The notes under the pieces were generated by a model. That model worked only from the letters and a program-made list of their open reading frames with translations, was not told the origin of the DNA and did no database searches. A DNA stretch of 20,238 nt from positions 1 through 20,238 of the IMG/VR virus record IMGVR_UViG_3300020411_000477; one strand, written 5' to 3'. This document shows positions 2,325-7,600 of the stretch, one piece after another (position 1 is the stretch's first letter; every line of letters begins with the position of its first letter). This DNA is from a virus. The position numbers and the translations under genes were made by a program.

Positions 2325-2513
2325 ATGGCACATCAATCCTCGCAAATGAGAGCAGGTCCATCTGCTTACTCTCTCATTGAAGAACCAGCAGATGCATATG
2401 CTAATCACGATAAACCTGAAGAGCATGTAGATACCAGTCCTAGCGATCAACAACCACCTGGAGTTGATGATGACATTGATTACAATTCTTTGGAAGAAGC
2501 TCTCACGAGTTAA
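2325..2513 (+). CDS. Small acidic hypothetical protein sharing MAHQSS with the capsid protein
   Basis: This 62-residue protein is hydrophilic and acidic, with a GVDDDIDYNSLEEALTS end and a Pro/Asp-rich middle, and is probably disordered. Its first six residues, MAHQSS, are the same as those of the major capsid protein that begins 430 bases downstream, and the first 12 bases of the two genes are identical (ATGGCACATCAA). No other similarity to the capsid protein is visible. The gene sits between the exported protein (9-base gap) and a strong terminator. No SD is apparent. I do not recognise a family. Its position just before the capsid gene would suit a capsid-associated or assembly factor, but that is a guess. 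Confidence 0.65.
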   Translation: MAHQSSQMRAGPSAYSLIEEPADAYANHDKPEEHVDTSPSDQQPPGVDDDIDYNSLEEALTS

Positions 2514-2521
2514 TGAATTAT

Positions 2522-2553
2522 GGATAGGGGTTTACTTACTCCTATCCTTTTTT
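2522..2553 (+). terminator. Rho-independent terminator upstream of the capsid unit
   Basis: GGATAGGGG (2522-2530) pairs with CTCCTATCC (2539-2547), nine pairs including one G-T, around an 8-base loop. Six T residues follow (2548-2553). It begins seven bases after the stop of the small acidic gene, so it ends the hli-psbA-riboswitch transcription block or attenuates entry into the capsid gene. Confidence 0.9.
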
Positions 2554-2566
2554 ATAATGATAGAAA

Positions 2567-2695
2567 CCTTACATGTCAATTATCATAGACAAGGTAAGGC
2601 TTGGTTAGAGGCACCTCAGTGTCGGACCTCTGACTAATTGGCTTTAGCCCTGTACGCAGGATACCTTTAGCCGTCTAGACGGTGGGAAAGACCAC
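2567..2695 (+). ncRNA. Structured leader of the major capsid gene, five consecutive potential hairpins
   Basis: The 201 bases between the terminator and the capsid start contain no convincing ORF but are dense in short inverted repeats. H1: CCTTAC (2567-2572) with GTAAGG (2594-2599), extended by TGTC (2574-2577) with GACA (2588-2591). H2: AGAGG (2607-2611) with CCTCT (2627-2631). H3: CCTG-TACG-CAGG (2649-2660). H4: the perfect palindrome CCGTCTAGACGG (2671-2682). H5: GTGG (2682-2685) with CCAC (2692-2695) around GAAAGA. The 8-mer CTTTAGCC occurs twice, at 2642-2649 and 2665-2672. It may be a 5' leader, an RNA processing site or a small RNA. It does not look like a tRNA (no TTCGA arm), and I do not recognise it as a named RNA family. 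Confidence 0.5.
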
Positions 2696-2754
2696 GAAAA
2701 ATTGATCAAAAAATTTTCAGCTGAAGAAAGTAAATATAAATTTATCCATAGGAA

Positions 2755-3942
2755 ATGGCACATCAAAGTTCCAGCTCTACTACCAGTCTTACCTGGGGTG
2801 GTGCTGATAACGGTGCAGCTACTACAACTGCTGCACGTAGAGAATTATATCTCAAGCTGTTTTCTGGAGAGCTGTTCAAAGGGTTCCAACGCAACACAAT
2901 TGCTCGTGATCTAATCACAAAGAGAACACTTAAGAACGGAAAGTCATTGCAGTTCATCTACACAGGTAGAACGAATGCTGAATTCCATACTCCAGGAAAT
3001 AGTATATTAGGTAATGGTGACGGTGCTCCTCCAGTAGCAGAAAAGACAATCACTTGTGATGATCTACTCATCTCTAGTGCATTCGTCTATGAGCTCGATG
3101 AGACACTTGCGCATTACGATCTGCGTGGCGAAATAAGTCGTAAAATCGGCTATGCTTTAGCAGAAAATTATGATAGGAGAATCTTCAGAGCAGTAAGTAA
3201 AGCTGCACGTAAAGCTTCACCAATCACAAAGACAAACTACGTCGAGCCAGGCGGAACACAGATCCAAGTTGGAGCTGGTTCTAATGCTGACGATGCTCTT
3301 AATCCTGATCACCTAGTGACTGCATTCTATGATGCAGCTGCAGCTTTAGATGAGAAGGGAGTATCTACTGAGGGTCGAGTAGCCGTTATAAACCCAAGGC
3401 AGTACTATGCTTTAATCAAAGGTTTAGACGGATCAGGTATCGGTGCATACCTAGTAAACAGAGACGAGCAAGGAGATGCCCTACAATCAGGTAAGGGTGT
3501 TTATGAGATTGCTGGTATCAAGATTTACAAATCAATGAACATCCCATTCTTCAGCAAGTTTGGTACAAAGTATGCTCCTTCTTCAGGTGCATCTGCTGCT
3601 ACTGACCTTGATACTATCGATCCAGGTAATACTGGTGACTTCGTGTCTGAGTCAATGGGTGATCAACACGCCAACTCAACTCCTTCTGGTCAGCGTACCG
3701 TTAATGACTACGGACAAGAAGCTAAGTTCGCTAATAGCTGTGGACTTATATTCCAGAAAGAAGCTGTAGGTTGTGTTGAAGCAATCGGACCTCAAGTTCA
3801 AGTAACTTCTGGGGATGTATCAGTCATCTACCAAGGTGATGTAATCCTCGGACGTCTCGCTATGGGTGCCGACTATCTTAATCCAGCTGCTGCTGTAGAA
3901 CTGTTCGCAGGAACAACTACTAAGCCAACTGCATTCGGGTAA
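2755..3942 (+). CDS. Major capsid protein (T7 gp10-like)
   Basis: This 395-residue protein forms the icosahedral head shell in the HK97-like fold. Recognisable T7-type landmarks are an N-terminal region ending in ARRELYLKLFSGELFKGFQR (about 28-47), the segment KSLQFIYTGRTNAEFHTPG (about 64-82), the E-loop/spine region with CDDLLISSAFVYELDE (about 101-116), and the A-domain-like VAVINPRQYYALI segment near the middle. The length is close to cyanopodovirus and T7 gp10A. The start is set by alignment to the family and by an AGGAA only one base before ATG, which is too close to be a good SD. It is bracketed by terminators at 2522-2553 and 3967-3993, so it forms its own expression unit, as gene 10 does in T7. 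The first six residues match those of the small acidic protein upstream. Confidence 0.95.
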   Translation: MAHQSSSSTTSLTWGGADNGAATTTAARRELYLKLFSGELFKGFQRNTIARDLITKRTLKNGKSLQFIYTGRTNAEFHTPGNSILGNGDGAPPVAEKTITCDDLLISSAFVYELDETLAHYDLRGEISRKIGYALAENYDRRIFRAVSKAARKASPITKTNYVEPGGTQIQVGAGSNADDALNPDHLVTAFYDAAAALDEKGVSTEGRVAVINPRQYYALIKGLDGSGIGAYLVNRDEQGDALQSGKGVYEIAGIKIYKSMNIPFFSKFGTKYAPSSGASAATDLDTIDPGNTGDFVSESMGDQHANSTPSGQRTVNDYGQEAKFANSCGLIFQKEAVGCVEAIGPQVQVTSGDVSVIYQGDVILGRLAMGADYLNPAAAVELFAGTTTKPTAFG

Positions 3943-3966
3943 TAGTTTTTAATTAACCAACATATG

Positions 3967-3993
3967 GGGAGTCTTCGGGCTCCCTCTTTTTTT
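3967..3993 (+). terminator. Rho-independent terminator after the capsid gene, UUCG tetraloop
   Basis: GGGAGTC (3967-3973) pairs with GGCTCCC (3978-3984) around a TTCG tetraloop, giving a seven-pair stem with one G-T, closed by C(UUCG)G. It is followed by TC and seven T residues to 3993. It ends only four bases before the tail-tube A ATG. The position is the same as T7's T-phi after gene 10; partial read-through would lower tail gene expression relative to capsid. Confidence 0.93.
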
Positions 3994-4615: not shown

Positions 4616-7600
4616 TGGCAGGAATTACTCAAACAATACCTAACTATACTGGTGGTATATCTGAACAGCCTGATCAGTTAAAAGTACCTGGTCAAGTTAA
4701 GTCTGTTCAGAATGCTATACCAGATCTAGTATATGGTTTATATAAAAGACCTGGTTCTAAACGTATAGGTAGTGATAAACTTACTAATGTACAAGTAGGT
4801 GGGTCTTGGTTTCATTACTATAGAGATGAAACAGAGGGCTCTTATATAGGACAAGTAGCAGATGATGGTAAGGTTAGGATATGGAGTTGTAATGATGGTA
4901 CTGAGAAAGCTGTTCATTATGATACAGCTGGACAGACTTACAATTCTAGTGATCCAGATCATACATCAATTACATCCTACTTAACCCCTAATCCTACTAC
5001 AGATACAGAAGACATACAAGCATTAACTATTAATGATACTACCTTCTTAAATAATAGAGCTAAAACAGTAGCTACTACAGGTACAACAGATGAGAGACCA
5101 CATAAGAACTTTGCTTATATAGAATTAGCTAGAACAGAGAATGGTAGACAGTATGGATTAAATGTATATGATGATACTACAACACAGACTATCAATACAG
5201 CTACTAGGATCAAGATTAAAAGTGATACTTTAGATGAAGGTAATGGTAGTGGTACATGTCCTGGGATAGGTACACAAGTATTTGCTATTAGTAAACCTGT
5301 TTTAACACTGACTATAACAAATGGTGGTAGTGGTTATACTAATAATAACGAGGTATTTTTTGTTGGAGGAGGAGGTAGTGGTGCAAAAGGATCAGTCTCT
5401 ATAAACAGTGGTTCTATAGGAACAGCAACAATTGTTCATTGTGGTTCAGGTTATACATCAGCTCCTACTGTAATCATAGGTCATGCTTGGGAAACAGGTA
5501 AAGCTATTCAATATCTTAACCAGCACTATTATGATGGAAGAATCTATACATCTCAAAGTCCAAACAATACTTTATGTGGATCTACACCACCAACACATAC
5601 TTCAGGAACAGTAAGCGATGGTAATATAGACTGGACGTATGCTGGTGTTCAAGCAACAGCTACATGTACTGTAGGTACTGGAGAGAATCTTACATTTAGA
5701 ATGAGTGCTTTAGGACAGCAAGGGGTCAGAGATGGTGCTGGTAGTTCAGTAACTGGAAGTGACTATCGTTGTTCTTATAACCGTGAGTTAACTTTATTAC
5801 ATGGTGGAGAAGGTTGGGTTACAGATGATGAGATAACTGTTGAGATGGATCAAGCTGCTACAGCATATACCTATACTATTCAAGTTACACATCATGAATC
5901 ACCAGCAGTAACTGCTAATTTGAAAGCTGTTAGACCAGTTCCAACACCATTTGATTCAGATACTTGTGTAACAGTAGAGTCTATCTTAGGCGGTATTGCT
6001 TCAGAAATATCTGGAGTAACTGTAAATGGTAATCCTATTCTAAGTAAAATAGTAGGTAATGGTATTTATATTTATACAACAAATGATGCAGATGATTTCA
6101 ATGTAGAGGTTGTTGATCAGGATCTCATGCGTGTTGTACAACAACAGATTAATGATGTACAAAATCTACCAATCCAATGCGTACATGGTATGATCGTAAA
6201 GATTTCTAATACTAGAATGTCTGATGAAGATGACTATTATGTGAAATTTAATGGAGAGAATGATAAAGATGGTGCTGGATCATGGGTAGAATGTGCAGCA
6301 CCTGGTATAGTTAAAAGCTTTGATGCTACTACTATGCCTCATATACTACAGAGACAAGCTAGTGGTAACTTCTTACTTAAAAAATATTCATGGAAAGATA
6401 GAGAGATAGGTGATGATATTACTAACCCTAAACCATCTTTTATAGGTAAAACTATTAATAAAGTATTGTTCTTTAGAAATAGATTAGCCTTCCTATCAGG
6501 TGAAAGTGTTGTTACATCTAGACCTGGATCAATAGCTGAACCTAACTTCTGGTCTAATACAGCATTAACAGTTAGTGCTTCAGATCCTATTGATATATCA
6601 TGTTCTTCTAATTATCCTTCTGATTTATTTGATGCAATAGAAATTACATCTGGTTTATTATGTTTCAGTTCTAATGCTCAGTTCTTATTAGCATCTGATG
6701 ATACTATATTAAATCCAGATACAGCTAAGTTAAGAGCAGTAGCATGGTATAACTATGACACTGTTACACCTCCTATCTCATTAGGTCAAACTGTAGGTTT
6801 TATAGATAATTCTAATAAGTATAGTAGGTTTATGGAGATAGCTAATATAGCTAGAGAAGGTGAACCAATGGTACAAGATACAAGTAAAGTTGTACCTAGT
6901 TTATTACCTAAAAACTTAGACTTATTCACTAATTCAAAGGAGAATAATTTAGTATTCTTTGGTAAAACAGATAGTAATACAGTAATAGGTTATAGATATG
7001 TAAGAACAGGTGAAAAACAAATACAAACATCCTGGTTTAAATGGAAATTTAACAACCCACTTAAATATCATTTCTGTATTAATGATCAATATTTCTTTTT
7101 AGATACTGATAATTTCTTACAACAAGTTAACTTAGTACAAGAAGATGCAGATCCAGCAATAACTCAAGATGATACTAATTATAAAATACACTTAGATAAT
7201 TATACTAATGTATCTAGTGGTGTTTTTGATCCTATTACAAATATAACTACATTTACTAATCAATCTGATTGGATAGATGAAGTAACTTCAACAGATAATA
7301 AATTAGTATTAGTCGATGTAGATTCTAACACAGCAAGGGTAGGTAGATATGCAGAATGTACTATCATTAATAGTGATGATTTCACTGTTCCTGGTGATTG
7401 GTCTAGTGCTACATTAAAGATAGGATATCTCTATGATTATCAAGTAGACTTCCCTAGATTTTATTTACAGAAATCAGAAGGTGATACAGTTATGTCAGAT
7501 GTAAATTCTAAACTAACTGTACATAGAATGAAACTAAACTTTGGTAAGATAGGTTTATATAGAACTACACTTACTAGAGTAGGTAAGGCTGATTATACTG

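Follow-up and report, generated by a model that had tools for sequence, protein, structure and literature searches.

Background

What lies in front of the major capsid gene of a marine T7-like phage, and does it act on the capsid message as an RNA? Few viruses are as abundant as the marine T7-like phages that infect Prochlorococcus, Synechococcus, SAR11 and roseobacters. An RNA fold retained upstream of the coat-protein gene in such phages would make a common late-infection regulatory element in the ocean, passed over by annotation, and a concrete handle on their high capsid protein production. The question is raised here by a 20,238-nt stretch of viral DNA (IMG/VR record IMGVR_UViG_3300020411_000477, the whole of which is termed the window). 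From its ORF list, the window is a cyanopodovirus fragment with the gene order hli, psbA, oxygenase, small ORFs, major capsid gene and tail genes. The capsid gene and psbA were identified by similarity, and the first genes are ones that we take, partly from their sequence, to be hli and an oxygenase. In similarity searches, the nearest annotated relatives were T7-like phages of Prochlorococcus and Synechococcus.

The initial annotation placed a dense, terminator-bounded run of hairpins ahead of the capsid gene. Our preferred reading, held with about even confidence, is that the element forms a processed, structured 5' leader which acts in cis on the capsid mRNA and would stabilize and/or regulate it. 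What the sequences show is a conserved fold, a fixed place before the capsid gene or operon, a single copy, a module set flush against the core and a self-complementary palindrome some 29 nt upstream of the start codon; the mechanism is a proposal.

Sampling of loci

A search for capsid homologues in IMG/VR returned 80 loci, from which 77 leaders were taken (L008, L012 and L070 carried no capsid start). A 25-base pattern of the core added at least 120 stretches, and named phage genomes were included as well. The core could be parsed in 197 of 222 loci, giving 104 distinct forms, with many loci being near relatives; truncated, divergent and non-cyanophage loci are among the 25 left unparsed.

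Extent of the capsid leader

The major capsid protein gene occupies 2755-3942 on the plus strand, as indicated by the ORF list, similarity and the IMG/VR homologues. The true non-coding leader is 2638-2754, and the 90 nt before it (2548-2637) are the 3' part of a conserved small ORF. The leader had been drawn as 2554-2754, which is too wide on the 5' side, as homologous ORFs in relatives mark 2554-2637 as coding. Nor is it the only sizeable non-coding stretch of the window, as had been claimed, since a glutamine-II (Downstream-peptide) riboswitch is also present at 1828-1884 (56 bits, Rfam), followed by a 16-codon ORF at 1899-1949. When the 207 nt before the capsid gene were compared with 200 dinucleotide shuffles, the fold of the native sequence surpassed 197 of them (z -2.6).

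The small ORF (2467-2637, plus strand) encodes 56 amino acids from an ATG at 2467, with a TTG start at 2464 also listed, and overlaps a 62-aa ORF at 2325-2513. Its product contains a hydrophobic segment and is probably a membrane protein, and its stop codon falls exactly at the core. In 39 parsed loci the core carries a TAA, and among these, 28 distinct frames of at least 41 codons share the ending ...PQ(C/S)R(I/T)S, the exceptions being one truncated contig and two unrelated frames.

Within this ORF lies a terminator-like hairpin followed by six T (2522-2547, plus strand). Its 6-bp stem shows compensating changes in relatives, with all 6/6 pairs kept in 12 distinct relatives or forms, although the pattern used for the stem fixed TA in each strand and the pairs are not all independent. 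Coding and RNA structure thus fall on the same bases. Of the terminators said to flank the leader and the capsid gene, terminator-like hairpins do occur at 2522-2547 and 3966-3985, but the front one is inside the small ORF. The notion of a terminator-bounded non-coding leader was dropped, since coding sequence covers both the front hairpin and the first 90 nt. Five consecutive hairpins had been drawn in all. Comparative support was obtained for the one at 2601-2637 and for those named P1/P2 and P4 below, but not for the palindrome P3, and the first in the series is coding sequence.

A conserved RNA core

The core extends over 2638-2696 on the plus strand, where covariance model R1 scores 78.9 bits. 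As RNA it begins with UU, followed by stem P1, in which GGCUUUAG pairs with CUUUAGCC (GGCTTTAG at 2640-2647 with CTTTAGCC at 2665-2672 in the DNA). P1 (2640-2672, supported by covariation and fold) has inner U-U mismatches and encloses hairpin P2 (2649-2660; CCUG UACG CAGG), from which it is separated by an asymmetric internal loop that places C opposite AUAC. With the closing pair G2647-C2665, P2 and this loop make up a sub-motif, GC-[CCTG TACG CAGG]-ATAC-C, at 2647-2665 on the plus strand, which is backed by leader pattern counts and models. Next comes the near-invariant palindrome P3 (2671-2682; CCGTCTAGACGG, or CCGUCUAGACGG as RNA), with a CC in common with P1 and only putative pairing. 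Hairpin P4 (2682-2695) follows, with GTGG and CCAC (GUGG and CCAC in RNA) around a GAAAGA loop, and rests on covariation and fold. The perfect 12-nt palindrome and the TACG-loop stem noticed at the outset are thus both real. The repeat CTTTAGCC does occur twice (2642-2649 and 2665-2672), but as a mere by-product of the GGCTTTAG/CTTTAGCC pairing in P1.

The stems vary with compensation. Among 38 distinct 8-bp strand pairs of P1, the outer pairs hold in 38, 38 and 37, while the two middle pairs are mostly mismatched (paired in 17/38 and 21/38). Pair 4 occurs as AU (17), UA (13) and GC (1), and pair 7 as AU (19), GC (9), UA (4) and CG (1). P2 is represented by 29 distinct hairpins, of which almost every one has a stem without mismatches and a YNMG-type loop, and P4 by GUGG/CCAC, GUAGG/CCUAC, GUGGG/CCCGC, GUGUG/CACAC and GUCG/CGAC. 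In a 60-sequence MAFFT alignment, which misplaces one gap and hence displays no P4 double changes, the covariation score was 0.359 versus 0.05-0.09 with the strands slid and was reached by 0 of 500 shuffles. In a model-fitted alignment of 68 matches, which leans to the model, it was 0.448 versus at most 0.10 when slid. A lack of compensatory change had been named at the outset as grounds for doubting the structure; P1, P2 and P4 covary strongly. Because such changes are many, P1, P2 and P4 are supported as a functional RNA fold. The thermodynamic fold of 2600-2700 consists of exactly the 5' module described below, P1, P2 and P4, while the minimum free energy fold of the longer leader (2638-2754) places the 3' part differently.

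For P3, no independent pair covariation was found among the parsed relatives. Its hairpin stays putative because its pairs hardly vary and because it uses the same CC as the end of P1, making the two mutually exclusive. The centre of P3 changes symmetrically (CUAG, CAUG, UCGA in P-GSP1, AACGUU in a second copy in L098), and the palindrome is shorter or imperfect in S-CBP1, S-CBP3, S-CBP4, DSL-LC07 and S-SRP01.

Of 22 phage records searched with model R1, 19 gave one good match per genome (E ≤ 8.8e-7), always located in the leader of the capsid gene. In the same set, P60 gave a weak match (E 0.0018), and S-CBP2 and the pelagiphage Gjalp gave none. Genomes outside the model were among those recovered: P-GSP1 (4.9e-13), DSL-LC07 (4.3e-12), S-SRP01 (7.3e-9), S-RIP1 (1.6e-7) and S-CBP4 (8.8e-7). 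Among the matches listed for the 120 pattern loci, the capsid start was at most 400 nt downstream of the core in 107 and 434-1091 nt downstream in nine, and four were contig ends. Inserted small genes between core and capsid were seen at such far-capsid loci in L109 and L162. A second, diverged core copy occurs in L098 at 5007-5059 on the minus strand, directly before the capsid gene and with the P3 palindrome CCGAACGTTCGG; the first copy in L098 precedes inserted small genes. The exact 25-base pattern was absent from the bacterial and archaeal contigs of the GTDB collection.

With Rfam 15, no family exceeded its gathering threshold in 2500-2800 and none matched the core at E ≤ 10; the best score in that interval, 20.7 bits versus the 60 needed, fell on the terminator-like hairpin. 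At tRNA-like loci and in other lineages, Rfam likewise returned nothing for the core, but only glutamine-II/glutamine matches, weak noise and one true tRNA (L294). These results bear on whether the core might be a ligand-binding riboswitch controlling the capsid operon, which we regard as highly improbable. The fold is compact and conserved, and cyanophages do carry riboswitches, as the glutamine-II element at 1828-1884 illustrates. However, the core has few invariant unpaired bases and no Rfam match, neither an expression platform nor a terminator is seen between it and the capsid start, and it is hard to see why phages of unrelated hosts would place a capsid gene under a metabolite switch. 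Inspection by eye for the consensus features of ribozyme cores (hammerhead, twister, HDV-like and others) revealed none.

Interchangeable 5' modules flush with the core

Immediately before the core, a compact fold adjoins the initial UUGG without a gap in 191 of the 191 loci with enough upstream sequence; six more loci were too short. In the window, this module is a hairpin at 2601-2637 (plus strand; relatives and fold), with the stem TTGGTTAGAGG/CCTCTGACTAA around CACCTCAGTGTCGGA, and it overlaps the coding sequence of the small ORF. Hairpins account for 119 loci (116 by script and three, scored as 'other', assigned by eye) and carry the loop CACCTCAGNGT(C/A)GGA or near variants. Another 55 modules are of T-arm or tRNA-like type, with a 7-nt T-loop and an acceptor-like stem. 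Most of these are truncated to one middle hairpin, and some are degenerate full-length tRNA-Gly. ARAGORN called tRNA-Gly in 17 of 197 loci, with the anticodon TCC in those inspected. Apart from these 17, the tRNA-like modules were recognized neither by ARAGORN nor, as tRNA, by Rfam, and ARAGORN found no tRNA in the window. In the six loci compared (L004, L013, L029, L030, L036 and L202), the end of the ARAGORN tRNA and the start of the core were no more than 1 nt apart. The tRNA-Gly annotated in NATL1A-7 has as its last base the one immediately preceding UUGG. The glutamine-II riboswitch also lies upstream of the tRNA-like structure in P-SSP7, P-SSP3, S-TIP37, P-GSP1 and others.

This interchange amounts to a natural experiment on what the place requires. 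Since three module types replace one another at one fixed position, the comparison suggests that the requirement is for a compact fold that marks, by its 3' edge, one point in the transcript; that the transcript is cut there, we infer. The initial annotation had offered a processing site as one guess, and this guess gains indirect support because relatives have a tRNA or tRNA-like structure flush at the 5' end of the core. A hairpin or T-arm stands before the motif in 24 of 27 MPP-A leaders (that script did not find the motif in 11 more). In MPP-C, roseophages and pelagiphages, the module and the distal palindrome are missing although the sub-motif is present. Processing thus cannot be the universal role of the sub-motif.

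A sub-motif shared by other marine T7-like phages

In general form, the sub-motif is GC-[hairpin, YNMG loop]-AYAMC, a stem and tetraloop followed by A(C/T)A(A/C)C. The leader sets comprised leaders of at least 60 nt from loci in which the match reached the capsid start. By strict count it was present in the capsid leaders of 30/38 MPP-A, 59/59 MPP-C, 51/69 roseophage and 26/64 pelagiphage loci, versus 0-0.4% of shuffles, and was missed in 38/64 pelagiphage, 18/69 roseophage and 8/38 MPP-A leaders. When one outer pair was required, the counts were 62/64 for pelagiphages and 56/69 for roseophages, leaving 2, 13 and 8 misses in pelagiphages, roseophages and MPP-A. In a looser count with the closing pair free, A-U replaced G-C in eight roseophage leaders; the background of the generalized looser pattern amounted to about 2% among shuffled leaders and to 0.6-4% per 250 bases outside the leaders. 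On the plus strand, 166 instances fell in leaders versus six elsewhere in the same loci, with one on the minus strand. The sub-motif ends 58-131 nt before the start codon (5th to 95th percentiles over phage groups). In some roseophage loci, such as L309 and L335, it seemed by eye to form part of a larger multibranched domain, perhaps with a closing stem. L294 and L295, contigs found with the pelagiphage capsid, have a tRNA-Thr some 180 nt upstream of the capsid start, and L294 has the sub-motif.

The leader pattern and alignment A4 select complementary P2 stems, and their 100% P2 pairing is by construction; the unselected evidence consists of the shuffle and elsewhere rates, the loop sequences and the outer pairs. 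The tetraloop was left free in the pattern, yet it was YRMG in 123 of 124 distinct instances, the remaining one being a chance match elsewhere in L093 that was excluded from A4. YNMG loops are stable in RNA. Because YNMG-type loops occur on the mRNA strand only, a function in RNA rather than in DNA is favored.

A 31-nt model of the sub-motif, R2, was run on 18 records and matched the capsid leader in ten isolate genomes at E ≤ 1.4e-5 (Syn5, CRP-125, S-TIP37, SS120-1, Gjalp, S-SRP01, P-SCSP2, P60, P-SSP7 and S-RIP1), near relatives of several of which were included in its alignment. In the other eight of the 18 (S-CBP2, NATL1A-7, S-CBP1, S-SBP1, S-CBP3, S-CBP4, the Desulfovibrio phage ProddE and T7), R2 had no significant leader match.

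The breadth of the sub-motif gives rise to the main rival to our reading, namely a translational operator in which capsid or scaffold protein binds the C/AYAM loop and YNMG hairpin and represses or times capsid translation, with processing secondary. We consider this possible, though doubtful. The small motif alone is conserved across Prochlorococcus, Synechococcus, Roseobacter-group and SAR11 hosts and tracks the capsid gene, and a constant asymmetric loop with freely varying stems, as found here, is typical of protein operators. Against this stands the distance of the motif from the start codon, which removes it from the ribosome site. As the sub-motif is more widely shared than the module, protein binding could be the older function.

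The distal palindrome and spacer

Between the core and the capsid gene, the plus strand carries a short palindrome, TTGATCAA, in an A-rich spacer (2702-2709), then the hypervariable self-complementary palindrome TTCAGCTGAA (2716-2725), and finally a 29-nt A+U-rich stretch that reaches the capsid start codon (2726-2754). A perfect palindrome of at least 10 nt was found between core and capsid start in 131 of 169 distinct leaders versus about 14% of shuffles, usually ending 27-35 nt upstream of the start codon. Such a palindrome is present in MPP-A leaders as well (17 of 22). Where palindromes were not required, 31 of 40 distinct tetraloop hairpins still had a self-complementary loop, for which the chance expectation is 1/16. 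With palindromes of at least 8 nt, 16 central 6-mers were seen, and 135 of 379 leader pairs with nearly the same 3' flank carried a different 6-mer.

A hairpin alone needs no self-complementary loop, and homotypic RNA contacts would explain why self-complementarity is kept; alternatively, template switching might perfect palindromes through mutation and so account for it. It is conceivable, but in our estimation unlikely, that capsid messages or cut leader RNA recognize their own copies through these loops, with a code for each phage lineage. If true, such recognition might couple capsid synthesis to message concentration or gather capsid mRNA, and in the extreme case a pRNA-like oligomer would be built from leader RNA. 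A palindrome that changes in sequence but stays self-complementary makes homotypic contact directly testable.

The same loops, together with the tRNA-type module in front and the well-folded 59-nt core, would also fit a free small RNA that is cut from the leader and acts in trans, with host mRNA or assembly as possible targets. This seems very unlikely to us, as the position is always ahead of the capsid gene or operon and no terminator follows the core. The element could also act at the DNA level, as a promoter for the phage RNA polymerase or by binding a dimeric protein. In favor of this, the palindrome of P3 hardly varies, the distal ones are without mismatch, and the core start, ATTGGC, resembles the start of the Syn5 promoter, given as ATTGGGCACCCGTAA in PMC3950665. 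However, the stems vary freely with compensation, the YNMG-type loops are confined to the mRNA strand, each genome has one core copy, and the distal palindrome differs between near-identical leaders. A DNA-level element is thus very unlikely indeed, and a phage polymerase promoter as the main explanation is ruled out by the single core copy per genome and the covariation.

Discussion

Under our preferred reading of a processed cis-acting leader, the capsid message would reach the leader within a longer transcript. A tRNA-type or hairpin-specific nuclease might then cut at the 3' edge of the module, giving an mRNA that begins with UUGGC. The P1/P2 hairpin would lie two bases from the new 5' end and could shield the message in the way known from terminal stem-loops in other systems. 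Either a phage protein or the ribosome may recognize, or dock on, the YNMG-capped C/AYAM loop, and the palindrome hairpin would bound a 29-nt ribosome landing site. The most economical reading of these sequences is a processing module, in P-SSP7- and Syn5-type cyanophages, joined to a protective or recognized core and a cleared ribosome stretch. The earlier suggestion of capsid mRNA stabilization or processing points the right way, and the leader probably shapes the cutting, protection or translation of the most abundant viral message.

In a literature search, with most subscription papers outside its coverage, no description of this capsid-leader element was found, and the accessible portions of PMC3950665, PMC9860041, PMC8776855, PMC2864571 and PMC4646655 contain no account of it. 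Several known systems are comparable in part.

The leader of T7 gene 10, behind the phi10 promoter, is likewise the 5' leader of a capsid gene in a T7-like phage, and the string GACCACAAC occurs in both. That leader is processed by RNase III. In contrast to the present element, no C/AYAM motif, tRNA module or palindrome was seen in it, and R2 had no match anywhere in T7 (GU071091) at E ≤ 0.5. At 2682-2699, the core of relatives reads GGGANAGACCACAAC, which is similar to GGGAGACCACAAC of the T7 gene 10 leader (L519), likely by chance because the P4 stem covaries.

tRNA-like structures and tRNA-flanked mRNA processing are known from other systems. The likeness here lies in what directly precedes the core, either a full tRNA-Gly or a T-arm joined to an acceptor-like stem; the difference is that the modules are mostly truncated and attached to a capsid leader. 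The retroviral dimer initiation site and the phi29 pRNA are self-complementary or kissing-loop RNAs. As in these, the loop sequence differs between relatives while complementarity is kept, but here the setting is an mRNA leader of a T7-like dsDNA phage, for which a dimer or a role in the motor would be hypothetical.

The manA, wcaG and glutamine-II (Downstream-peptide) RNAs come from cyanophages or cyanobacteria (PMC2864571) and are, like ours, structured leaders found in marine cyanophages. Of the three, only glutamine-II matches the window, where it lies about 750 nt upstream of the leader and separate from it. Structured mRNA leaders are thus known as a kind, whereas the family and architecture described here appear to be new.
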